Positions 1 to 20,707 of a stretch of DNA of 20,744 bases are shown here, piece after piece. The notes under the pieces were generated by a model. The model was not told the origin of the DNA. It saw nothing but the letters and a program-made list of their open reading frames with translations, and searched no databases. Source of the stretch: a virus; IMG/VR virus record IMGVR_UViG_3300030102_006286, positions 1 to 20,744 of that record. One strand, 5' to 3'. How positions within the stretch are numbered: the stretch's first letter is position 1; the number at the start of each line of letters is the position of its first letter. The position numbers and the translations under genes were made by a program.

Positions 1-2153
1 TCACTACCACCAACTAGATCGGCATACAGACAACCATCTTCTTCCTCTCCGCAACATGTCTTGGTGTTACCCGGACAATCTGGATCAACATAGACATCAC
101 AGTCGTTGTACACTCTCCATCTAAGAGAGGCGACTGTATCAAAACCCGGATGTCCAGGCGCCGAGCATTGTGTATCATCACAATTACAACACTCAGACTG
201 ATCTTCATTACCACAAGTAAACAGGTTACATGATTTTTGTAGTTCCTCTAAAATCTCTGGAGTAAATGAGTCTAAACCACCACTATAAACCACACCACAT
301 GGCTGTTGTGGTTCGCTGCCACACTCCTCTGATTTTGAACAACACCATACTACGATGCGTCCACAGTCTAGACAAGGCTCACCTAAATTATTTAACGTGT
401 CACACTTTACCCCCGGAGTAAAGTAGGATTCCTGATTTACACCGTCACCACCAAGCAACTCACATAAACTCTCTGTCATTGGGGGGCTACCCGGCTGTCC
501 CGGACTGGCCTCGTCTGTGCAGAAATAGAATCCATCCCCGTCAAGATCGTATATGCAACAAGAACCACATGGATCATCTAGGGATGAACAACAGGGTTGC
601 TCATCACAACTGAATGGTCTCCAAGTGGTTTGAAGGAATGGAGCGTCATCAGCCAAACAATCCTCTAGTGAATATGGTTCTCTGCATTCAATAACTTCAT
701 TTGCTACCGTATCGAAGTAACAACAGGATCCAATCAAATCACACGCTTCGTCACATACTGTTCCCTCTCCTCGGAAGAATCCTCCTAAGTATCTACACAT
801 ATCCGCAGACTGAATTGAACATTCTGAGATTCCCGGTTGAAGGGAAGTGCAACACGCTCCAGTTGCTCCAATTCCTCCGTCAATAGGACCTTCTCCACAA
901 GAGGTGAGCAAATTGGGATTTTCGTCTACATTGAAATCATTACAGTCAAAACAGTTGTCAATGGAAACGACTTGTTTATTCTCTGTAAAGTTAAACACAA
1001 GTGGATTTCCGTTGTGATCCACTCTAGTTCTAAAATCATCTATTGTGTTGGGTTCTAATACACTACCTAAATTTGGATCAATACCCCATTTTGCAATTGT
1101 TCCATACCATTCATCACGAACACTTATGAATTCAAAAAGATCACCAGCACCACTAAAACATGGAGCCTTAGTATAAGGCCACTTGATGTTTCTTGACCAT
1201 CTAGGAATGATAGGAGTAGTTCCTGTCGCACCGACAACTAATAACTTAAATGAAGTGCTTATATTGGGATCGTTTGGTGGGGCGATATTTACTAGAACGG
1301 GAGGTGGTCCATAAGTTCCACCCATCTGCATCGTATCTAAGACAAATAAACCCTCTGCTGTTCCGCCTGACTGATGCTCTATACCACAACTAAATCCACC
1401 TGCACCCTCGATGCAAAGTGATTGACAGTAACCATGTTTAGATGTAGGGGTAGCAATATTTCCCGGAAGACCTGTGTCTGTGCCTGGTAATGATAATAGT
1501 TTTTCTTGTCCCTCTCTGTACCTGTATGAAACGAAAGATGTAGACTTTGTTTCTTCATTATAAAAGGTTCCAGATGCACCTTCCAGTTTTACAACGTCTT
1601 GGTTTCCAGTTGATGTCTTTTTAGTGGAGACTAAGAACTGTCCGGCAGTTCCGCTAATAGCATCTAGATAGCCTGCTTTGCCTCTGTCAATCGTTATTGT
1701 AACTTCTTCGTCTGTTGAACTTATTCTTGCGTTTCTTCCAAGAACCTTAAGAGGTCTAATTACAATTTCATCAAGTGCAGGATCATCTTTGAAAACACCT
1801 AAAACATCAGCATCAGAGATTTCTGAATCAAAGGTATTACCACCACCAATTATAGTTGTTAGGTTTCCAGTCGCACCAACAATTCTACCGGGAGTTGTAT
1901 ATGCGAAAGTAACTCCAGTATTTTCGGAGTCGGTGAAAAACTCTTGATAAAGTTTTCCGTTTACAATTCTAGTGCCAAGAGGACTAAATCCACCAGTAAA
2001 ACCAAATCCGGTGTAACCCCTTGGACCTGTTTGTCCAAATCCGGTGGGACCTGTGGGACCTGTTCCGCCTCTACCACCAGTTCCCCCTGTGGGACCGGTG
2101 TTTCCGGTTATCTTGAAGTGACTACTTTGTAAACCGATTCGCATTACTGGCAT
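1..2153 (-). CDS. Collagen-like, cysteine-rich virion/fibre protein (partial, C-terminus off the left edge)
   Basis: An open frame of 717 codons runs from an ATG at 2153 to the window edge with no stop, so the gene is incomplete. The start is preceded by AAGGTGG on the minus strand at suitable spacing, 14 nt after the stop of the upstream gene. Residues 17-55 are Gly-X-Y triplets, many of them Gly-Pro-Thr, with two one-residue phase breaks, which suggests a short collagen-like trimeric shaft. A middle part of about 350 residues has no motif I recognise. From about residue 400 the chain becomes very rich in cysteine and contains imperfect tandem repeats starting with Cys-Cys pairs at 434, 477, 532 and 604. 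The first has the pattern CC..C..C..GG.F.G.GT.C. As the last gene of a baseplate and fibre operon it is probably a fibre or surface-exposed appendage. The receptor is unknown and the function is inferred from position and composition only. Confidence 0.75.
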   Translation of the reverse strand, partial: MPVMRIGLQSSHFKITGNTGPTGGTGGRGGTGPTGPTGFGQTGPRGYTGFGFTGGFSPLGTRIVNGKLYQEFFTDSENTGVTFAYTTPGRIVGATGNLTTIIGGGNTFDSEISDADVLGVFKDDPALDEIVIRPLKVLGRNARISSTDEEVTITIDRGKAGYLDAISGTAGQFLVSTKKTSTGNQDVVKLEGASGTFYNEETKSTSFVSYRYREGQEKLLSLPGTDTGLPGNIATPTSKHGYCQSLCIEGAGGFSCGIEHQSGGTAEGLFVLDTMQMGGTYGPPPVLVNIAPPNDPNISTSFKLLVVGATGTTPIIPRWSRNIKWPYTKAPCFSGAGDLFEFISVRDEWYGTIAKWGIDPNLGSVLEPNTIDDFRTRVDHNGNPLVFNFTENKQVVSIDNCFDCNDFNVDENPNLLTSCGEGPIDGGIGATGACCTSLQPGISECSIQSADMCRYLGGFFRGEGTVCDEACDLIGSCCYFDTVANEVIECREPYSLEDCLADDAPFLQTTWRPFSCDEQPCCSSLDDPCGSCCIYDLDGDGFYFCTDEASPGQPGSPPMTESLCELLGGDGVNQESYFTPGVKCDTLNNLGEPCLDCGRIVVWCCSKSEECGSEPQQPCGVVYSGGLDSFTPEILEELQKSCNLFTCGNEDQSECCNCDDTQCSAPGHPGFDTVASLRWRVYNDCDVYVDPDCPGNTKTCCGEEEDGCLYADLVGGS

Positions 2154-2167
2154 CAATCACCACCTTT

Positions 2168-3430
2168 TCATGTAGAAGTTAGATATGTACCAGTCTTGCT
2201 ACTCGTCACACCAAATTTACTAGAGTGAGTATCGATATTAGTATCGTGATCGGATAGTAGTGCAGCAACGTCAGAAATTGTTTTTCCTTGTCCCTGAGAC
2301 AATGCGGTTAGTTTACTAGTTACTTCTAGTTCTGAGACAGTAAGTTTATCATGAACAGTTACAGCATTTAGGTTCCTAAGTTTCATAAAGGGAACAGGTG
2401 TTTCTCTCATGTTTACTCCACCATAACCGATGATCCGTTCATTATCTCTGTCTTTGACAATTCCCGGTGTGTAAACATGAGTAATGGTTACTCCAGTTGG
2501 TTTCCCGTATGATTTACCATCAACAAAAACAGTTGAGTCTGTAGTAAATATATTTGACGTTCCATCCAGCGTAGGGTTTACTTCTATTTCTACTTGATTT
2601 TTTGAAATTACTGAAGTGATTCTACCCTTTGTCGTTTCTCGTCCATTCTTTTGGTTGTAAATGCCAGGGGTATTTAATATGCTTGTCGAAAAACTATCCC
2701 TTGATGAATCATCTATCGATATAACTGCGGTGTAACCATACTTCGTCCCGTACAGTGAGTAAAAATCAGAGAACTCATCAACCGCTAACTTGAGAGGTTC
2801 GTCTACTCTATACCAACCATCTCCAAGATAATTTTTTGTACCATAAGTTACGACATCGATAACCTGTCCCAACTTTGCGAGTGAGTCTTCACCCTCAGAT
2901 GCAACTACATTTCCACCGACTTGATATCCAATATAATTCTGAACAATGGCATTGAAGTCGCCGTTATCTGCCATCTGTAGAACTGGTTTTACAATATTGG
3001 TGGGTTCGGATGGTGCGTAACTCTGAAGTAAACCTCCAGTAATCGCACTCAAGAAGTAGATGTCATTACCACCAGCACCACCAGTGCTTCCTAGAGGACC
3101 GTCACCATCGGGATCAAATACTGCAAAAGCACCCTCTGGATATTTCATCTGTCCGGAAAGAACTAGAGTGACATTCGCATCAGTTACAGCCTCGACTACA
3201 CCGATGACTTCTGCGGTTGCAGGATCATTCGCTTGTGCTTTGGTGTAAATTTTTGGATTACTTAGAACATCATATCGAACAACATCACCCGCAGTGATAC
3301 CATCCACGATACCACCCTGCACTGTTGGTGTGTTAGGAACAACGGTGATAAGTCTGCTACCAACAGCCTGTAGACTGTTGATTGTTAAATTACCCGCTAT
3401 GTTTGAACTATTGTTGCAAGATGATGACAT
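2168..3430 (-). CDS. Fibre-type virion structural protein sharing a repeated domain with its neighbour
   Basis: This protein has 420 residues. The ATG at 3430 has a strong GGAGG seven bases upstream, and a second ATG four bases earlier is out of frame. Residues about 47-170 form a domain that also appears twice in the 793-residue neighbour. Shared landmarks are GDVVRYD, AEVIGVVEAV, a YFLSA..GGL segment and a KPV strand followed by a short Asp/Gly turn. A Gly/Asp-rich insertion (about 107-122) sits inside it. The C-terminal part (about 330-420) looks polar and could form a helical or trimerisation region. No enzymatic motif is visible. Position, composition and the shared domain suggest a short fibre or baseplate-rim protein. 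The exact T4 counterpart cannot be assigned; genes 10 to 12 occupy this place in T4. Confidence 0.7.
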   Translation of the reverse strand: MSSSCNNSSNIAGNLTINSLQAVGSRLITVVPNTPTVQGGIVDGITAGDVVRYDVLSNPKIYTKAQANDPATAEVIGVVEAVTDANVTLVLSGQMKYPEGAFAVFDPDGDGPLGSTGGAGGNDIYFLSAITGGLLQSYAPSEPTNIVKPVLQMADNGDFNAIVQNYIGYQVGGNVVASEGEDSLAKLGQVIDVVTYGTKNYLGDGWYRVDEPLKLAVDEFSDFYSLYGTKYGYTAVISIDDSSRDSFSTSILNTPGIYNQKNGRETTKGRITSVISKNQVEIEVNPTLDGTSNIFTTDSTVFVDGKSYGKPTGVTITHVYTPGIVKDRDNERIIGYGGVNMRETPVPFMKLRNLNAVTVHDKLTVSELEVTSKLTALSQGQGKTISDVAALLSDHDTNIDTHSSKFGVTSSKTGTYLTST

Positions 3431-3444
3431 TCATGTTCCTCCGA

Positions 3445-5826
3445 TTAACTTACTACCTGATCATCTGCTAAGAAGTCTGCGTCTGCGACATAGTGTAGGT
3501 GAATATCGTCCCACAACACCAGTCCAGAGTTTAAGAATACTCTAAACCCATCATTAGTTATGAGTTCAAACCTAACAGTGTCTACTCCGCCCGGTGCTGA
3601 TCTAGTCGAACCATCTTTTTGTGATCCGGATGTGAGTCTCATGTCTGCATTAGCAGATGCGTTGAATGCGTCTCCGGTGTGTCCACTCTCGGGCGAGAAG
3701 AAGTTAACTTTAGGAACTCTTCTCATCTCAATCGGGAATCTGTAATAATCAAAGTAAGATGGAGATGCTAGAATATGAAGAGCAGTTGGATCTACCATAC
3801 CACCAGTCATTGTTTGTGTATGAGTGTCCTGATCCAGTGCGTATGATCTTTGATAGTATCTCTTACACTTATCAAGTTCTAGTCTTAGATCTGTTGGTTC
3901 AAATACAGTCGGAACGTATCCTCTCTCTAGTTTTACCTGTGCAAGATCTAATTGACTATTTGTGTTTGTGACATCAAATCCTACATCAACATAACTGTCA
4001 GATGAGGTTGTGGAAACAGACGGAACTGTAAATGCCACACTGTATTTTTGCCACTGTGTTCCCACTCTAACCAGTCCATCGTTATAAGTGGCTCCATTCA
4101 TCCATGTTCCGATTGGAGTGTTTCTCTTCGAGGTTCCGTCATATTGAGAAACCACGAATCCCATAGTTGATCCTGTTACTCCACATTTTGCGTAGAAAGA
4201 TAGAGTTACGTCTTCACCCGCAAGAGTTTCATTATTCTCTATCCTGTTCACTAAGTAAACGTGATCTCCAGCAGGTCCACTATACCCACTAATGCTGTGC
4301 TTAGTTCTAAGGTAATATGTGGGATCTCCCTCTATTCCAATCACAGGTTGAGCGAAAGGAACCCGTTCTATGTTCGGGGAAGAACTGTAAGTTGCTGCTT
4401 GTTTGCCGGTTCCTTCCTTAGCAGTAATTCCATCAATGCGAAGCCATTTATCTGCAAGGTAAGTATTTCCGGTGTTACCATATGGAAGAGTTCCGATACC
4501 TCTTTGCCAGATATCATACCCACCATTTATTAGTAAGTTTGGTTGAATTGCTTGTCCGTATGTTGCACCGGAATTGTTTCCTAATCTATAGTTATTAGCA
4601 AATCCACCACCACCAGAACCGCGAGCCCCTGCGGATCTTTGCTGAGCCCCGTCAGGAACCTCAATTTCTCCAGTGTACTGTTGGTTGATGACAAATGCTT
4701 TGAAGTCACCACCTTGCTCCCAAACAAAGGCAAACGGTTTCGCTGCTCCGCCTGGAGGGATACCTGTGAGAAGTCCATCGACACCAATATACTGCAATCC
4801 ATAACTGCTGTTGATATTGTTGTAGTTATCAATGAGTCCGGATCCAATTACTTGGATATACTGTTGTCCTCCGAACTCAAATTTGTTCACACAAACACCA
4901 ATGGCATGTTCTAAGTTTTCATAGTTGTTTGTAAATTCAAACCAACCATTAAATCCAGTTCCCGGACGGAATCCAACAACTTTACCGGGAGTGATTGTGT
5001 GTTGGTTGTTCGCACCTTCCAACTGAACGGTGAACATGTTACTGTTTGCAGTTGCACCCGCAACAGATCCGGAAAGACCAGTTGAGAGATATTGTCCTCT
5101 ATAGTTAACAACAACTGCCTTTGATTTTCCGCTTATGTCATCATATGTAACACCAACCACCATTGGTTTGGATACCTGTCCAGAGACGATTGGTTCACTT
5201 GCAGTGAGTCCACCGGGATCCTCCGCTGAGAGGAAGTAAGAACATCCGGGGGACAGAGTTGCACCATCTGTATTTTTGAAGACACCCTCAACGACACCAG
5301 CGGTGGCAATTTCAATATAGTTTAGAGTTGGGTTGAACGTATCGACTTCGCTAAATGTAATCCCTGCAACAATACCAATCGCCTCAGCAAAACCTTGTCC
5401 GTTAGCCTGAGCATAAGTGATACCACCAGTTGCACATCTAACCACTTGTCCAAATGTAAATCCTGCGGTTTGACCATAAACTCGGAAACGAGTATTAGGA
5501 ATCTCTGTTAGATCTGGAGAGAACTTAAGTTCTCCATTTACACTAACGTCTCCGTAAAAAGTTACACCCTTATTAACAGTATCTGCGATGGTTACTCTAA
5601 ATACACCCGCGTCCAGATCCGATCCTGTAGTCGCTCCACCTTGCGGATCATTTGACGCAGTGGTTCCTAAAGTTAAATTTACACCGTCACCAGATACACC
5701 ATCATAGATCTTGATGTTGTTCAACTTACCAACAACATTTTGATTGTAGTGATTAACCCAATCATAAAATGTTGTGGTTGAAGTCAGAGTTGGTATCTGA
5801 TACTTGTTGTCGTTCGGATTTGGCAT
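3445..5826 (-). CDS. Large tail fibre/baseplate-rim protein with duplicated domain and carbohydrate-binding-like C-terminal region
   Basis: This protein has 793 residues, and its ATG is preceded by AGAAGG and, further up, an exact T4-type late promoter box. The N-terminal 110 residues include a FYDWVNHYNQN segment and a YGDVSVNGEL strand of the kind seen at the start of phage fibre shafts. Two copies of one domain follow (about 124-246 and 279-385), each with a VV.F/R strand, an AIG(I/V) strand, a Gly-Leu-Leu/Thr turn and a KP strand. A Gly/Ser-rich linker lies at 399-410. Residues 430-443 (NLLINGGYDIWQRG) and 456-461 (YLADKW) open a jelly-roll-like module that closes at about 628-644 (LAQVKLERG, FEP) and leads into CKRYYQRSY at 654-662. 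This arrangement is common in phage and prophage fibre tips and resembles carbohydrate-binding modules. A receptor-contacting fibre is the best reading, but the ligand is unknown. Confidence 0.8.
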   Translation of the reverse strand: MPNPNDNKYQIPTLTSTTTFYDWVNHYNQNVVGKLNNIKIYDGVSGDGVNLTLGTTASNDPQGGATTGSDLDAGVFRVTIADTVNKGVTFYGDVSVNGELKFSPDLTEIPNTRFRVYGQTAGFTFGQVVRCATGGITYAQANGQGFAEAIGIVAGITFSEVDTFNPTLNYIEIATAGVVEGVFKNTDGATLSPGCSYFLSAEDPGGLTASEPIVSGQVSKPMVVGVTYDDISGKSKAVVVNYRGQYLSTGLSGSVAGATANSNMFTVQLEGANNQHTITPGKVVGFRPGTGFNGWFEFTNNYENLEHAIGVCVNKFEFGGQQYIQVIGSGLIDNYNNINSSYGLQYIGVDGLLTGIPPGGAAKPFAFVWEQGGDFKAFVINQQYTGEIEVPDGAQQRSAGARGSGGGGFANNYRLGNNSGATYGQAIQPNLLINGGYDIWQRGIGTLPYGNTGNTYLADKWLRIDGITAKEGTGKQAATYSSSPNIERVPFAQPVIGIEGDPTYYLRTKHSISGYSGPAGDHVYLVNRIENNETLAGEDVTLSFYAKCGVTGSTMGFVVSQYDGTSKRNTPIGTWMNGATYNDGLVRVGTQWQKYSVAFTVPSVSTTSSDSYVDVGFDVTNTNSQLDLAQVKLERGYVPTVFEPTDLRLELDKCKRYYQRSYALDQDTHTQTMTGGMVDPTALHILASPSYFDYYRFPIEMRRVPKVNFFSPESGHTGDAFNASANADMRLTSGSQKDGSTRSAPGGVDTVRFELITNDGFRVFLNSGLVLWDDIHLHYVADADFLADDQVVS

Positions 5827-5848
5827 AAATTAGTACCTTCTTTATGTG

Positions 5849-5856
5849 TATTTATA
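5849..5856 (-). promoter_or_regulatory. T4-type late promoter box
   Basis: The minus strand reads TATAAATA exactly, the T4 late promoter -10 consensus recognised by the gp55 sigma factor. It lies in the 37-nt gap before the 793-residue fibre gene, with the predicted start of transcription about 15-20 nt ahead of the ATG, leaving room for the AGAAGG ribosome site. It would drive the fibre genes separately from the upstream wedge genes. Confidence 0.7.
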
Positions 5857-5863
5857 CAACTAT

Positions 5864-6709
5864 TCAATAAGTAGCCAGTAATAAATTGTTCATGTATCGA
5901 ATAGTTCTATCCGAAGGATCTATCTTAAGAACCTTACTAATCGTGTCTTCCTGTGAATCACCAGCCGTGATCGATCCAATGGATTCAAGTCTAACCTGAT
6001 ATCTAGCAGCACCCCCGGAAGCGGGATTTCCTGATGAGTAACCACCAGCCTGATCGTATAGATCAGAATCTTCCTCTGGTGTTATGGTTGAGTATGCTGT
6101 TCTAAATCCAACGAATGTCAATTCATCGGGGACACCTACAGAAATACTACCAAAATTTACTGCAATATTATTATAAACCCAATACTTTAATCCATTAAAG
6201 AATGGACTATCTTCTCCAACAGCCTCTACACCCTGAACCTCAGTTAAGAACCAACCAGGTCTAAACTGAATACTAATACCAGCAGCGGTTCCTACCTCCA
6301 CCTCAACGAGACTTGTAGATCCACCCGTGATGTATGGTGAGTCATAAGGAAAGAGTGGACAAGTTCCTTTCCATCCGGGAGTTCCTATTGTAGTTAATCC
6401 AGATCCACCGTCACCTAATGCTAAAGTTCCCTCGGGTGCATCTCCCCATAGTTCAGGTCTACCAGAGTATAACCAGTTATGATACATGTTCATTGTTAAT
6501 GTCAGTTGCATCTGAAACTGCTCTTGTATTTCATTTAGTTCAGCAGCCTGTAATGCATATCCAGGTCTAAACATGACATGTTTGTAATTTTTAGAACCAC
6601 CCTCCGAAAGTTCACCAGAAATTTCATGTTCAGTAACCCTACTTAAAAAAGGAGGACCTGACATTGGAAACTCCGCACTTAATGGGTTGGTTAATCTATC
6701 TGTAGGCAT
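5864..6709 (-). CDS. Putative fibre connector/baseplate protein in the gp9 position
   Basis: This protein has 281 residues, and its start is preceded by AAGGAGAT at ideal spacing. The N-terminal part carries FRPGYALQAAELNEIQEQ (residues 47-64), a signature seen at the N-termini of many phage tail fibre and virion-attachment proteins (the DUF4815-like pattern RPG..LQ..EL.E.Q). The rest is beta-rich and Gly/Ser-rich without a recognised motif. It follows the gp8-like gene, exactly where T4 has gene 9, and its length is close to T4 gp9 (288 residues). I saw no direct sequence match to gp9. It is plausibly the protein that joins fibres to the baseplate rim. This assignment rests on position and the N-terminal motif. 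Confidence 0.65.
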   Translation of the reverse strand: MPTDRLTNPLSAEFPMSGPPFLSRVTEHEISGELSEGGSKNYKHVMFRPGYALQAAELNEIQEQFQMQLTLTMNMYHNWLYSGRPELWGDAPEGTLALGDGGSGLTTIGTPGWKGTCPLFPYDSPYITGGSTSLVEVEVGTAAGISIQFRPGWFLTEVQGVEAVGEDSPFFNGLKYWVYNNIAVNFGSISVGVPDELTFVGFRTAYSTITPEEDSDLYDQAGGYSSGNPASGGAARYQVRLESIGSITAGDSQEDTISKVLKIDPSDRTIRYMNNLLLATY

Positions 6710-6730
6710 TCTTATATCTCCTTGGGTTTA

Positions 6731-8638
6731 TCACACGTTTCCAGGCATCGGTAGTATGAATGTTACTGTAAAGTTTCTTTCCGCTTGTTGTCCAGCGCCT
6801 CTATTTGTAGGCATCGTCCAGTTTACATCTTTCGTTGAAAGATAGTCTCCACTAGAAACATCAATGATATCATCTCTGTCCGTTGGAACTTCTGTTTTAG
6901 TTTTGTCTAGCGTGTAGGTTATGTTTGTAGTATCATCTTTTATACTGGTTGCTTCTCTTATATCACTTGGTTTTAGAGTTAAAAGACTTAGTGTAGAGGT
7001 TCCATCGGTGTTCTTGGTTGTGTTGCTCAGTTTAGCATCACTTCGTGAGAAGATATTCGATGTCGTAGTTCTACCCTCTTCAAAAGTATTAAAACTAAAT
7101 TTACTACTCGAAGAAGATGATGAAGATGTTGTTGATGGAGTCCCTGTTACTTTAGTTATCAACGATCTGTCTACTACCTCATTCGAGTTTGTTCCTATCC
7201 CAACCTGTCTATTAGCATCAGAGACTTTGAAATTCTTGACAAGTCCAATTCTAGTGAACGAGTCGAGAGGGACTCCTAGATTATCTCTGATATAGTCACT
7301 CCTGAAAGATTTTACAATTTGGATCTTAACATCCTCTAAAACAGAGTCCAAATTACCAACAAGAGATCCGTTCAGAGGAGTTCTATTAACTTCTAATCTG
7401 TTTGAACTAAATCCATTTTCAAAAATTGAATCTAGATTGGTGATTGTTACATCTAAGTAACCATAACCACCACTAATTTTTTCCAAACCTCTAGCATAGA
7501 AAGTTTTTCCACCGTCTTCAGTATAACCAACAACATTCCATTGTGCATCATATCCGGTGTCGCTTTCTATCTTAAGAGGCCAAGGTCCCTTTCCTTTCAA
7601 TTTCAATTGTTCTTTTTCTAAACCACTAAAGTCAATAAACATGGATAGAATATTACCTCCCGGTAAGTCACACTCTGATAATATCTTTCCAAGAACTCCA
7701 ATGTTACTTGAAGGATTTGTTCGTTCGTATTTGTCTCTGATTCTTTTCTCTGGTGTGTCGGTGGCATCTTGATAGAATTTACAAGAGCAGGCTCCACATG
7801 ATGTTGGGAAAGATTCTAAATCACATCCAAGACACTTATCTCCACTAAATCCAGATCCAAGTCCTGCATCTGTGTGGGGAGTAAAGACATAACGCATGTC
7901 CATTCTTTTTGCAAAGTCTATGCACTTATAACACTTAGTGCAATCACACTTATAAAAATCTCCTGCATCATAGGCAACTCCTGTAACTTCATCGTACCAG
8001 CCTTTTTTGTGGTACAGACAACAAGTTCCCGTATTTTGCTGTTTACCAGATCCGCAAATTTGAGCGGACTCCATTCTGGGATTTGTCGAACTATAAAAAT
8101 CAGTTAATCTATCTTCATCGTCTAAGTTTCTGAAGGGTAGATATTTTCCTAAGTGAGTCAAGTCTTGTCCGGCGTCTACTTTGTACAGAGCAACCCACCG
8201 AGAGTTATCTGGATAAAGTCTTTCACAAACATTATCTGGTGTGCTTGTAGAGATAGACTGTCCCTCTAGATCCAATCTCCAATCAGGATTACCTGCTCCA
8301 CATACACACAAATATACGATATTGTTTACTGGATTGAACGCATAATAATTTCTTCGTTTTCTGTCTTGTGACCAAGCATTGTATACGTTTCCAGATGAGT
8401 AGTTTGATCTATACGCAACCTTACTCACATCTGATTGTTTTATCTTGGAATAAAATGCCAAGTTATGTTGAAGATTTTCCTTAGAGGACTCTGTGTTGTC
8501 TGTTTCAATCGAACCAACATCACCTGCAACAACCAAACCAAACTGCTCCTGATCATTCAGTGCAATCTGATCAAATGTGGTTTGGGCAACTGAAACCGCT
8601 AAGTTAGATGGTGAATTTGTTGAAGTATATCTAGCCAT
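6731..8638 (-). CDS. gp8-like baseplate wedge protein with cysteine-rich insertion
   Basis: This protein has 635 residues; T4 gp8 has 334. Similarity to gp8 is local: an N-terminal FYSKIKQSDVSKVAYRSNY region, then a NNIVYLCVCGAGNPDWRLD strand pair like the NDIVVCNS...YRCLD part of gp8, a Trp-Val-Ala-Leu-Tyr strand (148-152), and an ending NFTVTFILP that matches the C-terminal strand of gp8. Between residues 195 and 286 lies a segment with 12 cysteines, including CDCTKCYKC (231-239) and CLGC/CGACSC (269-286), absent from T4 gp8 and reminiscent of a metal-binding or disulfide knot. A run of serines (about 495-508) forms a flexible linker in the C-terminal half. Gene order (after gp6 and gp7, before the fibre connector) supports wedge gp8. 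The match is inferred from partial motifs and order, so confidence in the name is moderate. Confidence 0.6.
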   Translation of the reverse strand: MARYTSTNSPSNLAVSVAQTTFDQIALNDQEQFGLVVAGDVGSIETDNTESSKENLQHNLAFYSKIKQSDVSKVAYRSNYSSGNVYNAWSQDRKRRNYYAFNPVNNIVYLCVCGAGNPDWRLDLEGQSISTSTPDNVCERLYPDNSRWVALYKVDAGQDLTHLGKYLPFRNLDDEDRLTDFYSSTNPRMESAQICGSGKQQNTGTCCLYHKKGWYDEVTGVAYDAGDFYKCDCTKCYKCIDFAKRMDMRYVFTPHTDAGLGSGFSGDKCLGCDLESFPTSCGACSCKFYQDATDTPEKRIRDKYERTNPSSNIGVLGKILSECDLPGGNILSMFIDFSGLEKEQLKLKGKGPWPLKIESDTGYDAQWNVVGYTEDGGKTFYARGLEKISGGYGYLDVTITNLDSIFENGFSSNRLEVNRTPLNGSLVGNLDSVLEDVKIQIVKSFRSDYIRDNLGVPLDSFTRIGLVKNFKVSDANRQVGIGTNSNEVVDRSLITKVTGTPSTTSSSSSSSSKFSFNTFEEGRTTTSNIFSRSDAKLSNTTKNTDGTSTLSLLTLKPSDIREATSIKDDTTNITYTLDKTKTEVPTDRDDIIDVSSGDYLSTKDVNWTMPTNRGAGQQAERNFTVTFILPMPGNV

Positions 8639-12215: not shown

Positions 12216-15200
12216 TTACCCCAAACCTAAAATGTTAGCAAACCAGTTTGGTTCTTGTAGTTCGTCTGGAGAGACACTAGAGGTGTCTCTGACAAGAGAT
12301 AGAATCATTCTATGTGTTTGTTGTGTACTGAACGTGTGTGCTATAGCAGAAACTAACCACTTACCAGAGGTTCTAGTTGTCTGTCTCTCTGCACCTTCAG
12401 TCACCAACGGAATATTCAATCGTATGATATCTCCAGGCTGAACAGAGAAGTCACCGTTTACAACTATGGCACATTTTTGTGAACTGAGTTGAAGCATCTG
12501 AGCGTTTCTTAGTAGAGGGGTGTTGAGAGGTGTATCCCAATAAGTAGACCAGGTTCTGGTATACTCAACATACTTGGAGAAATTATCACCACGACAAGGA
12601 CAGTTGCAACTTATAGAATCGTCTAGATTACTATACAGACAACCTAACCAAGACTCACCCAACTCATCTGATATCAATTCACACTCTCTAGTTTCTTGCA
12701 GAATCGTTTGCAAATCATCGTCGGTTGGTTTCTTAGCAATACTTCCGTTTTCTTCTAACCACTCTTGAATAGAACTGAACCCACTGAACAATCCTCCAGC
12801 AAAAACTTCATCTATGGTGGATCCGGGAAGTCCCTCGAAAGATTCTATAATATTATTTTCTTGATCAACTATGAAGTACAAGTACTCGGTTAGACTCAAT
12901 ACACCAGTGGTTGGAGGTTCAATTCCTAGATCGTAAAGTTCCTCTCTTGACACAACTCTTTCGTTTCGGGGAACCAAGTCCTGACATGGACAATTGCAAT
13001 ATGGATTATCTTCGGGACAACCTAGACTACTAACAGGTCCATCTGGGTTCGCACAACGATAACCACCATCACTGCATGTATTGACGTTTCTTCTAGAGAA
13101 GACAACAAACTGTGCAGCAAAGTTTCTACCCATTTCTTGTTTTTCATTCTGTCTTTGGAAGAAATAGTCATGACCGTGTTTTGGCTCTACCATTCCATAT
13201 TCAGTGTTTCCAGTTGAGTCCCTCTTCCAGACATCTTCCTCACCGAGTGCCGATGAGTATTCTGTTTCTCGTTGCCAAATATATGAGTATCCATAGAACC
13301 AACTAGAGTTCCACCAATATCTCCATCTCCATCCGCCCCACCTACTATACGAACGACCACTTGCATTGTTACCAACGTCTGAATCCGTTTCATCAAATTC
13401 AGGATATTGATAGGTGTCGTAGAAATAGTTGTCGTAGTAGTTATACCATCTGTTCCAATACCAACCATAACTATAACGATATCGATACCTCCACCAAGCA
13501 TAATTATATCCACCATAGTAACCATAGTATCCATAATATCTTCTACCATTATAGTAAACACCTGGCGGGGGACTATACTCAAAGTGATAGTAACTGTTTG
13601 GTGCGCCTGCGGAAACATCAACACTAGACTTCGATAGCAATGAGTATGCGTTTCCCTTTCTGTTTAGGCTTGCTGCATATGGAGCATATCGGAAATCATC
13701 ACCGTAGTAATCGTATCCTTCACCCCACCAGTTACCCCGGTTTCCTGCTGTTGTATAGAAAGGTCTCTCGGTTTCCCAATCATCGGTTGGATATAGGTTC
13801 ATCGAGTCATCTGCTGTATTTTCCCCATATTCTGCTTCGTCTGGTTCAAGGGCAACGTCGAATCCGTAGGGATCAATACCAATGACAGCCATGTTTCTGT
13901 GAACACCCTGCTTACCATAAGGACCTGGAGTTATCATGACGAGATATGGAAGGAAGTATTCGTATCCAGCATCTCTGATGAATCCCTCTGGATATTCATC
14001 CAGTGTTTCCAATCCAATGGGTGTTTCAAATTCAACCCGAACGTAACTTTGCACTTCTTTTCTTTTTATACTAACAGGTTTGTATTCAGCAATGTCGTTG
14101 ATATAAAAATTATACCTTTGAGAATAATCATAAGGATTGAAACCATTAGGAAGAAGAATTTCTCCATTGTTCGGATGCCATTGTGGTGCTATCACACCCC
14201 ACGGAGGACCTTGCTCGTCGTCCTGAAAAATCTCGCTGCTTGGACCATACTCACAGGGATTTCCTTCCCAACCAACTGACCACCTGTGTTGATCCAATTC
14301 CTCCATCGTTACGTTTGGACCTCCATAGAAAAAGGTTTCCGGTTGAACGTGTACCGGGCAACTATAGGTAAGGTAGTCACAAGGAACGCCTGGTTCATTC
14401 GTACCTTCTCGACAACAACCTCTACAATAGAAATTTTGATGCCTACCTCTAACCTCTCCCCACCACCTTTGTGTCGAATCTCTAAATGCACTAGGTCCTG
14501 CGGTTTCAAAGTCCATATATTTTTGATCATATATTGGATGTCCACCTAGTGCTGTTGGATCAATCGATGGATCGTTTCCAAGGTACGCATTGTATATCCA
14601 CTCACCAAGTAACTCGTCTCTTACGTTATATTTTCTTGCGAACTGCTCATAGCGACTACCTCTTAAAGATTTTCGTTGAACACTCTTAACATTGAAAAGA
14701 GAATGTGGAGTGGTAGTGATATTTAACTTATCTATTTCTGGTTGCTTGGATATGAAATATGCTCGTTTGTTCCAGTGCCTATCATACGCACCTAAAAACT
14801 CTTCTTTATATTGAAGCCATTCTTCCAAACGATCTCTCAGTCTCGTCAAAGCACTCTGAGCAGCATTTATTCTTATTGCACATGCAGCACCAGCCTCATC
14901 AATATTGTCTACACATAAGATGTAATCCTGACCTGAAAGTCCATTGCACTGACTGAAATCTCCAGTTCCTTCAGGATTACAATACCAACATTTAAAACCA
15001 CGAACCTCTTCAGCCGTGTAGCAATCTCCACACTCGGGTTCGTCGTCGGGGTATCCCCAAGGTCCATTTTGACAAGCGTCTAAATATTCTTCGTTGGCTA
15101 GAATAGCAGTTTGTAATCTTGTGATTTCCAGATCGATCACATAGTTTGAAAAGTCAGGAACCTCCCGTTTGAGATAGTAAAATTGTCCCAGAGTTTCATT

Positions 15201-16727
15201 CCACGGTCCCGTCGCACCCTCACCGTACTCATAACTAAGTCTGAATTGCTCACCTAGTGGTTTTTCCTTTTCCCAGTCAACAACATCAGAGAAAGATCCA
15301 GCAGAAACTATATTGTAGTCATCGATGGCACCAGTAACGCCAGGAGGTTGTGTTAGACAACAGACACTACACTCATAAGTGTCAAACTTGTTTCTTAAAT
15401 TTCTTAGTCTTGCGTACTCTTGTTTTTTCTCTACAACTTTCTCTTTTATTTCCTTGATTGTCTTTAGTGTATCAATGGGTAAAGATGAGATGTCGAACAT
15501 GTTCTGCCAAGTATTTTTGTCAGGCTTCCCTACGAGATTTCCATAACCATCTTCATAATTTAGAATTGTAACATCTGTGTGTCTATTCGCCTCGTTATGA
15601 TGCTCACCGAAGTACCCATAAATGGTATCATAGAATTGTTTTCCATTAGTTCGATCTGCAACAATAGTTTCGGGTAGTAGTTTGTGTTCTTCGATATGTT
15701 CTATTTTGTCAAAGTCTCTGTGATACTGATAGTCAACAAATATTTTTTTGTGTGACTCGTTGTAATCTAAGTGATCGAAATATGGATCAGAAAAATCTGG
15801 TTTGATGTTGGTGTAATATGAAGAGTATCCACCATTTTGCCAAAGAGCCATATGATCATAGTCAGATAGAGACGCGACATACTCTACAGTGTTTGGATCG
15901 TCCGGCTTATTTAGATCTACGTTATACTCTCTAATTTCTTCATTGTTCCCACGAATGATCATGTTGTTCACGGACTCAAATGCATATCCCTTTGTTGTGT
16001 TATAGAAAAGATAGTTTGCTGCATTTGGATTTTGTGCAGACAAAGAGTTTTCCGCAACATTGTCTAACATGGAAAATAGATCGGGATTACTTCTTGATTT
16101 CCCCCACGGATACATTAAGTTATTTTTCTTTAACCATATGGAGTTAGCAGTCGGTTCTATTTTATCACTCTGAGTAGATCTGTTTTGTCCGTCATCATTA
16201 TCAAAATACTTATTCGAGAGAATGTTGATAAGACCTTCACCGTCCTCTGACACGATAGGTCCAATGAAGTCATCCTCTAGATAAGTTTCGTCTTGTTTGT
16301 TTATGTAATATTCGGGAGTGCAAAAATCCATCTTGATATAAGAGTTAGAACCAGCAGGTCCAGAGATTGACTCGGACGACTCGTTTGATATCTTAGTGGT
16401 GTTGTATACAATGAACTTACAGTCTAGGATGTGAGAATCTGATTCCGGTTCCCCATCTGGGTTTGGTGTAAACGCTTTTATCGTTAGAAACTCACCACCA
16501 ACTGGATTGAATGATTCAAAAGCCTCCATAGAATCTCTAACAGTGATTGATCCTCTTACGGTTGGTTCAAAGATACTCTCTGAAATGTGCATTCCGTGAA
16601 ACACATCCATAGTTACATCATCATCTTTTGGTGTTGGATATATTACAAGAGGAGATCCATTTATGTTTTCCAACACAATGGACTGTATTTGAAATTCTTG
16701 TGATGTTGCTTTTCCGGTTTCTGCCAT
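12216..16727 (-). CDS. Giant gp27-like baseplate hub protein
   Basis: This protein has 1503 residues; T4 gp27 has 391. The N-terminal region shows the hub/tube-like domain pattern ISESIFEPTVRGSITVRD (48-65). The last 120 residues match the gp27 C-terminal domain: LLRNAQMLQLSSQKCAIVVN (about 1405-1424), QPGDIIRLNIP and GKWLVSAIAHTFS, parallel to gp27 RLQTMAQYDGYAKCSTIGN, TPGVKIIFND and FYVDEVIHELS. Between them lie roughly 1000 residues unlike T4 gp27. They contain five cysteine clusters (453-457, 552-616, 768-790, 1218-1248, 1349-1378; CNCPC occurs twice), a charged, probably helical segment (about 430-450), and a Tyr/Trp-rich tract at 1046-1151 with 46 aromatics in 106 residues. I see no lysozyme motif and no VgrG-type spike repeats. 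It sits between gp53 and gp25, where T4 has gene 5. The hub role is well supported, and the role of the insertion is unknown. Confidence 0.8.
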   Translation of the reverse strand: MAETGKATSQEFQIQSIVLENINGSPLVIYPTPKDDDVTMDVFHGMHISESIFEPTVRGSITVRDSMEAFESFNPVGGEFLTIKAFTPNPDGEPESDSHILDCKFIVYNTTKISNESSESISGPAGSNSYIKMDFCTPEYYINKQDETYLEDDFIGPIVSEDGEGLINILSNKYFDNDDGQNRSTQSDKIEPTANSIWLKKNNLMYPWGKSRSNPDLFSMLDNVAENSLSAQNPNAANYLFYNTTKGYAFESVNNMIIRGNNEEIREYNVDLNKPDDPNTVEYVASLSDYDHMALWQNGGYSSYYTNIKPDFSDPYFDHLDYNESHKKIFVDYQYHRDFDKIEHIEEHKLLPETIVADRTNGKQFYDTIYGYFGEHHNEANRHTDVTILNYEDGYGNLVGKPDKNTWQNMFDISSLPIDTLKTIKEIKEKVVEKKQEYARLRNLRNKFDTYECSVCCLTQPPGVTGAIDDYNIVSAGSFSDVVDWEKEKPLGEQFRLSYEYGEGATGPWNETLGQFYYLKREVPDFSNYVIDLEITRLQTAILANEEYLDACQNGPWGYPDDEPECGDCYTAEEVRGFKCWYCNPEGTGDFSQCNGLSGQDYILCVDNIDEAGAACAIRINAAQSALTRLRDRLEEWLQYKEEFLGAYDRHWNKRAYFISKQPEIDKLNITTTPHSLFNVKSVQRKSLRGSRYEQFARKYNVRDELLGEWIYNAYLGNDPSIDPTALGGHPIYDQKYMDFETAGPSAFRDSTQRWWGEVRGRHQNFYCRGCCREGTNEPGVPCDYLTYSCPVHVQPETFFYGGPNVTMEELDQHRWSVGWEGNPCEYGPSSEIFQDDEQGPPWGVIAPQWHPNNGEILLPNGFNPYDYSQRYNFYINDIAEYKPVSIKRKEVQSYVRVEFETPIGLETLDEYPEGFIRDAGYEYFLPYLVMITPGPYGKQGVHRNMAVIGIDPYGFDVALEPDEAEYGENTADDSMNLYPTDDWETERPFYTTAGNRGNWWGEGYDYYGDDFRYAPYAASLNRKGNAYSLLSKSSVDVSAGAPNSYYHFEYSPPPGVYYNGRRYYGYYGYYGGYNYAWWRYRYRYSYGWYWNRWYNYYDNYFYDTYQYPEFDETDSDVGNNASGRSYSRWGGWRWRYWWNSSWFYGYSYIWQRETEYSSALGEEDVWKRDSTGNTEYGMVEPKHGHDYFFQRQNEKQEMGRNFAAQFVVFSRRNVNTCSDGGYRCANPDGPVSSLGCPEDNPYCNCPCQDLVPRNERVVSREELYDLGIEPPTTGVLSLTEYLYFIVDQENNIIESFEGLPGSTIDEVFAGGLFSGFSSIQEWLEENGSIAKKPTDDDLQTILQETRECELISDELGESWLGCLYSNLDDSISCNCPCRGDNFSKYVEYTRTWSTYWDTPLNTPLLRNAQMLQLSSQKCAIVVNGDFSVQPGDIIRLNIPLVTEGAERQTTRTSGKWLVSAIAHTFSTQQTHRMILSLVRDTSSVSPDELQEPNWFANILGLG
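13275..13592 (-). other. Tyr/Trp/Gly/Arg-rich low-complexity tract in the hub protein
   Basis: Hub residues 1046-1151 hold 30 tyrosines, 12 tryptophans and 4 phenylalanines in 106 positions. The densest part (1058-1108) has 28 aromatics in 51, arranged as GYY repeats and then alternating Arg-Tyr pairs. An acidic break (1110-1117) divides it from a second Trp/Arg-rich block (1125-1151). The reading frame stays open throughout, and the flanking sequence is ordinary coding sequence. Confidence 0.9.
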
Positions 16728-19796: not shown

Positions 19797-20516
19797 ATGC
19801 AAAAACTATCTTCTTTATTATTGGATAAAACACCAAAATACGAAATAACAATACCCTCCACCGGAAAAGCAACTAGATTTAGACCTTTTTTGGTGAAGGA
19901 AGAGAAAATATTACTCATCGCACAGTCAACACAGTCTAAAAAAGACATAATGCTTGCGATCAAGGACATAATAGAGTCATGTGTGGAAGGTATATCGAAC
20001 GCCGGTGACCTCCCGATCTTTGACATAGAGTATATTTTCATGAAACTAAGAGCAAAGTCCGTAGGTGAGGTGGTTCAACCCATCATTGTATGTCCAGAGA
20101 CTGGTGAAAAGGTTACGTTGGATGTAAACATAGACGAACTAGAGTTGAAAAAGTCAAAGGCACACAAAAAAACCATAAAGTTAGATAAAGATCTTGTAGT
20201 TAAGATGAAATATCCCTCTATAAACATACTTGAAAAGTTTGGGGGAGATATAGACACAACAAACACACCCGAATTCTATGATATGATACTTCACTGCATC
20301 GAATCAATAGAAACTCCCGAGGTTAAAGTGAAACAAGATGAAGTTCAGATCGAAGAACTCAAAGAGTTTGTTGATTCCATGACAAAGCAACAGTTCGATA
20401 TGATCTTAAACTTCTTTGTTACTGCACCGAGACTTGAATCTGTAGTTGATTACGAGACAGAGGACGGACAGAGTAGAAAGGTTACGCTTTCGGGGTTGGG
20501 GGATTTTTTCGGTTAG
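19797..20516 (+). CDS. 26: Baseplate hub assembly protein gp26
   Basis: This protein has 239 residues of the T4 gp26 family (T4 gp26 has 208). Family features are TRFRPFLVKEEKILLIAQST (26-45), a helix ending in IIESCVEG, LPIFDIEYIFMKLRAKSVGE (72-91), a Cys-Pro-Glu-Thr-Gly turn, and a C-terminal helical part leading to LSGLGDFF. gp26 acts in assembly of the central hub. The ATG at 19797 follows TAAGGAG. The zero-frame protein ends Phe-Phe-Gly-stop on a T TTT TTC slippery heptamer at 20504-20510, and the -1 frame stays open for 65 more codons, so two products of 239 and 303 residues are predicted. It is likely co-translated with the tube-fold gene upstream. Confidence 0.92.
   Translation: MQKLSSLLLDKTPKYEITIPSTGKATRFRPFLVKEEKILLIAQSTQSKKDIMLAIKDIIESCVEGISNAGDLPIFDIEYIFMKLRAKSVGEVVQPIIVCPETGEKVTLDVNIDELELKKSKAHKKTIKLDKDLVVKMKYPSINILEKFGGDIDTTNTPEFYDMILHCIESIETPEVKVKQDEVQIEELKEFVDSMTKQQFDMILNFFVTAPRLESVVDYETEDGQSRKVTLSGLGDFFG
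20504..20510 (+). promoter_or_regulatory. Probable -1 programmed frameshift site in gp26
   Basis: The heptamer T TTT TTC is in the zero frame of gp26 (codons 237-238, Phe-Phe), the exact X XXY YYZ form. A tRNA-Phe can re-pair on TTT TTT after slipping back one base. The gp26 stop TAG follows two codons later. Four bases beyond the heptamer a stem can form (20515-20520 AGCCCT with 20530-20535 AGGGTT, one G-U pair, nine-base loop), in the place expected of a stimulator. Confidence 0.7.
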
Positions 20517-20707
20517 CCCTCAGCCACTTAGGGTTGGGGGAGTACTTCAGCATCAACTTTAACTTGATGCAACATTACAACTATAGTTTAACCGAAATCG
20601 AGTCCATGATCCCGTGGGAAAAAGATATATATTTATCGATGCTTACAGCCTATATAGAAGAAGAGAACTGGAAGATAAAGCAACGAAATAAATCGCGGGG
20701 AGCCTGA
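20510..20707 (+). CDS. -1 frame extension of gp26 (tail-chaperone-like)
   Basis: The -1 frame is open from 20477 to a TGA at 20705-20707. Read after slippage at 20504-20510 it adds 65 residues to gp26 residue 238, giving a 303-residue product. The extension reads like real protein: an ALSHLGLGEYF segment, NFNLMQHYNYSLTEIESM, IPWEKDIYLSMLTAYIEEEN and a basic tail. A Tyr-Ser-Leu..Glu..Met-Ile-Pro-Trp-Glu pattern followed by an amphipathic helix is reminiscent of downstream parts of frameshifted tail assembly chaperones. The only in-frame ATG (20567) would give 46 residues, has no ribosome site, and lies inside a hairpin. TTG codons at 20534 and 20564 are no better. The stop overlaps the next start as TGATG. 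Alternative: a short independent gene of the gp51 type. Confidence 0.7.
   Translation, partial: RLALSHLGLGEYFSINFNLMQHYNYSLTEIESMIPWEKDIYLSMLTAYIEEENWKIKQRNKSRGA
20515..20535 (+). other. Stem-loop downstream of the slippery site
   Basis: AGCCCT (20515-20520) can pair with AGGGTT (20530-20535), six pairs with one G-U, and two more G-U pairs are possible outward. The loop is CAGCCACTT. The following G-rich run could pair with pyrimidine stretches to form a pseudoknot; this was not computed. Confidence 0.4.
20550..20570 (+). repeat. Perfect inverted repeat within the -1 frame extension
   Basis: GCATCAA (20550-20556) and TTGATGC (20564-20570) are perfect complements around a seven-base loop. 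The second arm covers the in-frame ATG at 20567, so folding would hide it from ribosomes. It lies 39 bases after the slippery site, far for a classical stimulator. Confidence 0.6.

Follow-up and report, generated by a model that had tools for sequence, protein, structure and literature searches.

We propose that gp26 and the -1 reading frame entered at its 3' end very probably constitute one gene, which would give rise to two tail assembly chaperones through a -1 frameshift of the lambda G/GT type. This reading, drawn from sequence comparison, is based on the conserved signal, on homology that continues through the junction between the two frames and on the existence of a natural fusion in T4. 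The locus lies at the end of the window, that is, the entire 20,744-nucleotide stretch of viral DNA that was analysed (IMG/VR record IMGVR_UViG_3300030102_006286), and comprises the following features:

19797..20516, + strand: gp26 (TAC-N, the 'G'-like short form), 239 aa, with an ATG preceded by a good Shine-Dalgarno (SD) sequence (-8.4 kcal/mol)
20491..20499, + strand: SD-like G-rich stretch CGGGGTTGG, putative stimulator, ending 4 nt before the heptamer (-5.7 kcal/mol with the anti-SD)
20504..20510, + strand: slippery heptamer T TTT TTC, in register with gp26, present in 110 of 111 adjacent loci
20510..20707, + strand: -1 frame extension ('T'-like; gp51 in other annotations), 65 codons plus TGA (phrog_634, 1.2e-23)
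20514..20516, + strand: zero-frame stop TAG, one sense codon (GGT) past the heptamer, with equal spacing in 52 of 62 clusters
20517..20525, + strand: 5' arm CCCTCAGCC of the downstream stem (9 bp, -16.0 kcal/mol, z -2.14)
20532..20540, + strand: 3' arm GGTTGGGGG of the same stem, pairing with 20517..20525

The gp26 protein matches PF12322 (T4_baseplate, 8.1e-55) and phrog_150 (1.6e-58), and its gene ends in ..GAT TTT TTC GGT TAG (..LSGLG D F F on the protein side), so the in-phase heptamer noted in the first-pass annotation is indeed in place. The 65 residues of the -1 frame, RLALSHLGLGEYF...KSRGA, run to the TGA at 20705-20707 and resemble 'gp51, baseplate hub assembly catalyst' (phrog_634), the homology beginning at the heptamer; the fused product is predicted to be 303 aa long, with DFF-RLALSHLGLGEY as the junction peptide. 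An identical gp26 is found in a second assembly (L003). Most ribosomes would stop at the TAG and release the 239-aa short form (TAC-N), comparable to lambda gpG, whereas a minority, aided by upstream SD-like pairing and by the downstream stem, would slip back by one base on T TTT TTC and produce the 303-aa long form (TAC-NC), comparable to gpGT. By analogy with lambda, the tape-measure protein would be coated by many short and few long subunits, and the tail-tube protein would be recruited by the extension. We infer the occurrence and the efficiency of frameshifting as well as its role in tail assembly.

Conservation of the slippery site and its stimulators

Relatives were collected by an unbiased extension-profile scan of viral contigs, by a gp26 scan and from annotated phages, and the set taken in comprised 111 loci (62 clusters) in which gp26 adjoins the extension. 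An in-register T TTT TTN occupies the same point in 110 of these loci, compared with about 0.56% of other gp26 codons at which an X_XXY_YYZ pattern occurs in register, and hence the heptamer is not there by chance. The only adjacent locus devoid of the six T's, L105:801-1530, lacks about 40 C-terminal residues of gp26 together with the heptamer but retains an intact extension, and we treat it as a defective or misassembled copy. The site is found in Kyanoviridae, in pelagiphages and methylophages, in phages of Sinorhizobium, Rhizobium, Desulfovibrio, Stenotrophomonas, Aeromonas and Vibrio, in the Agrobacterium jumbo phage Atu_ph07, and in Schizotequatrovirus and Emmerichvirinae. A tblastn search with the extension yielded matches in 566 phage records, and the alignments listed begin at residue 1 or 2. 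Thus, as anticipated in the first-pass annotation, alignment of the relatives reveals conservation of the heptamer and of the -1 frame but not of a start codon.

Codon choice at the site points in the same direction. The last base of the heptamer varies among clusters (C in 54, T in four, A in three and G in one), the codon ahead of the Phe pair, whether AGT, GAT, AAT, TCT or GCT, has T as its third base in every case, and the first Phe codon is TTT throughout; where the second Phe is replaced by Leu, the codon is TTA or TTG, and the six T's are kept. When calculated from the codon usage of the individual genes, the joint log10P of this T-keeping choice is -27.3, a figure that is not an exact probability because the clusters are related. 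Among Phe-Phe pairs elsewhere within gp26, one of 56 is slippery.

About 10 nt upstream of the heptamer, an SD-like stretch occurs. Pairing with the anti-SD of 16S rRNA, evaluated in windows of 9 nt that end 6-8 nt ahead of the heptamer, reaches a family-wide mean peak of -6.65 kcal/mol against a background of -0.04, and 79% of clusters attain -5 kcal/mol, versus 10% of the background. GAG accounts for 27 of 43 Glu codons in this region, compared with 24% elsewhere (P 1e-7), a preference which argues that the peak does not solely reflect protein conservation. In bacteria, -1 sites are known to be stimulated by SD-like elements lying upstream of them (PMC4066793); Atu_ph07 and Bakedbeans have no such element. 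Downstream, the first-pass annotation had placed a stem four bases after the heptamer; a 9-bp stem was found, but its spacing in the minimum-energy fold is 6 nt, and when a longer segment is folded, the G-rich stretch upstream competes for the same C-rich arm. Across the family, folding just 3' of the heptamer has a mean z of -1.68, as opposed to -0.73 at +60 and, in distant control windows, -0.27 at +120, -0.31 at -150 and 0.09 at -250; in some members the downstream structure is slight.

Start of the extension and rival explanations

Could the extension instead be a small independent protein, gp51, whose translation begins near the stop of gp26 through re-initiation or coupling? Database records annotate gp51 from internal ATGs, an ATG stands at or just after the junction in 29 of 62 clusters, and Vibrio phage K393, which lacks the six T's, has a TAATG overlap. 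Nevertheless, we consider this improbable. In the virus studied here, the candidate starts within the extension are TTG 20534, TTG 20564, ATG 20567, ATG 20606 and ATG 20639, none of which has a Shine-Dalgarno sequence (the best value being -2.5 kcal/mol, versus -8.4 at the gp26 ATG). In 26 of 62 clusters, the stretch from the last in-frame stop to the conserved core contains no ATG, GTG or TTG, and the same holds for the present locus, apart from its SD-less TTGs; an ATG with a good SD is present in only one of the 62 clusters, whereas 55% of gp26 starts have a good SD. Hence the earlier proposal that the extension has no credible start of its own stands, and what the family conserves is a startless downstream frame that can be reached only via a -1 shift. 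Besides, a separate gene would leave unexplained why the homology starts at the heptamer, why the six T's are conserved at synonymous positions and why T4 carries a fusion.

Transcriptional slippage on the T run, by which mRNAs changed by one base would yield the fusion without ribosomal slipping, appears marginally less probable still: every member with the site does contain six T's, but the run is a short one that a C terminates in 54 of 62 clusters, such a mechanism would place no demand on codon register, and both the SD-like element and the fold downstream are suited to ribosomal slipping. Finally, the single-frame fusion found in T4 gp51 could be taken to mean that gp26 and gp51 are properly one frame, broken here by sequencing or assembly error or by gene degradation. 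This reading is already refuted by the relatives, in which the frame is broken at the identical base in 62 clusters, isolated phages included, and the identical gp26 of the second assembly likewise speaks against it; we regard its probability as negligible. Programmed -1 ribosomal frameshifting therefore remains our preferred explanation.

Lineage variants, predicted structures and gene neighbourhood

Both parts of the predicted fusion are homologous to the T4 gp26/gp51 family (PF12322, phrog_150 and phrog_634). T4 gp26 consists of the PF12322 domain alone, that is, the short form, whereas T4 gp51 (249 aa) combines a gp26-like domain (residues 1-201; PF12322, 3.9e-52) with a C-terminus related to the extension (hhalign E 3.9e-5 over residues 206-244; phrog_634, 1.2e-23). 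With an HMM of the virtual fusion, T4-type gp51 aligns without gaps through the Phe-Phe junction, and T4 gp26 only up to it. The resemblance to the lambda G/GT design suggested by the first-pass annotation is supported by this natural fusion of a gp26-like domain with the extension, which fits a short/long pair. T4 thus encodes the same two forms as would be produced here, but from two separate genes on opposite strands, and therefore cannot make the fusion by frameshifting; as had been noted, T4 is not generally described as frameshifting, and a 2016 review lists the lambda-type tail-gene frameshift as conserved 'except T4' (PMC5009743). In other Tevenvirinae, gp26 and gp51 are split as in T4. 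Phylogenetically, the T4-type gp26 and gp51 domains form sister groups (94/86) beside the frameshifting Straboviridae, which suggests a duplication within the T4 lineage, and frameshift types are spread throughout the tree, the deepest branches of which are weak. The two-gene arrangement of T4 apparently arose by duplication and is a derived state. In one T4-like gp51 (L126:2501-3258), the reading frame appears to be broken within the N-terminal domain.

Counting against the frameshift reading, Ackermannviridae and K393 retain the -1 extension without the six T's. In Ackermannviridae (L134, L135, L136, L138 and L035), (A/G)TT TTC takes the place of T TTT TTC at the junction, the extension is startless and no SD-like element is present; in K393, the junction is CTT TTC. 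These phages form one clade. Since T TTT TTC is retained by its sister, the Vibrio phage Bakedbeans, loss of the six T's is probably derived. It is possible that (A/G)TT TTC represents a different shift site. Tentatively, and leaning slightly towards doubt, one might envisage that a T_TTT_TTN shift with an SD-like stimulator was ancestral across the T4 superfamily, that Tevenvirinae replaced it by duplication and that Ackermannviridae, in which the -1 extension is still startless, moved to N_NTT_TTC, a kind of shift site not described before.

AlphaFold gave confident models both for gp26 (pLDDT 93.9) and for a naturally fused T4-like protein (86.4). HK97 gp13 (2OB9), 3FGX and 3KLU served as chaperone reference structures. 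Fold searches of the PDB returned no significant match, with known chaperones surfacing weakly (3fgx, probability 0.84, TMt 0.44, E 0.62; 2ob9, probability 0.16, TMt 0.40, E 2.6; neither significant), and matches in BFVD correspond to the gp26 family itself. A search of PDB sequences with the gp26 profile gave no match; the extension profile hit only coiled-coil gp41, which we attribute to chance. A long ORF overlaps the stop of the extension (L003 3911-5296), and comparison of ORFs with tape-measure PHROGs gave weak matches in phiM12 and Vibrio D484 and none for this phage. Just beyond the end of the window lies a run of N (20744-20760; L002:745 onward), across which the downstream ORF differs from the intact 461-aa ORF of the same phage at L003 3911-5296. 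Elsewhere in the window, all on the minus strand, are a 1503-aa protein of the baseplate region with Cys clusters and a low-complexity stretch rich in Tyr, Trp and Arg (..YRYRYSYGWYWNRWYNYYDNYF..) (12216-16727), several long proteins that look structural and contain many Cys pairs (3-8638) and a protein with collagen-like GPTG repeats (3-2156).

Relation to known frameshifting systems

The heptamer of lambda gpG/gpGT, GGGAAAG, differs from the T TTT TTC described here, and we know of no sequence similarity between the lambda proteins and gp26 or its extension. Further differences from lambda are the length of the short form, about 239 aa here, and the SD-like element that accompanies the site.

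Closer to the present case, the chaperone genes gp26/gp51 of T4-like phages, which belong to the same protein family, were identified by Vladimirov, Gautam and Davidson (2022, Virology 566:9-15), as cited in PMC10885494 and PMC12846349. Citing that work, the former (PRFect) describes some T4-like phages as having one short gene and one longer, fused gene, and the latter, on phage Adele, mentions that poly-T slippery sites are known from the TAC-N genes of T4-like phages. Consequently, the suggestion that gp26 plus its extension is the T4-lineage counterpart of the lambda chaperones is supported by the gp51 identity but is not new: lambda is the known example of the principle, and T4-like phages have apparently already been reported to follow it. 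The novelty is therefore modest; what may be new are the statistics on conservation and the SD-like element. Frameshifting would also account for the T4 'exception' (PMC5009743) and for the short gp51 of cyanophages, the missing first ~200 residues of which were found puzzling by Sullivan (2010; PMC3037559). In most of the T4 superfamily, gp51 would then be the tail of a gp26 fusion, and the many database records that present it as a separate gene with an internal start should show a joined CDS. The Vandenendeviridae and Andersonviridae, exemplified by Adele, also have, ahead of the tape-measure gene, a conserved startless -1 frame that follows a poly-T motif, but there the motif is GTTTTT and the phage families are different (PMC12846349). 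Together with T4, the phages described here offer a natural comparison between frameshifting and gene duplication as means of setting the ratio of the two chaperones.
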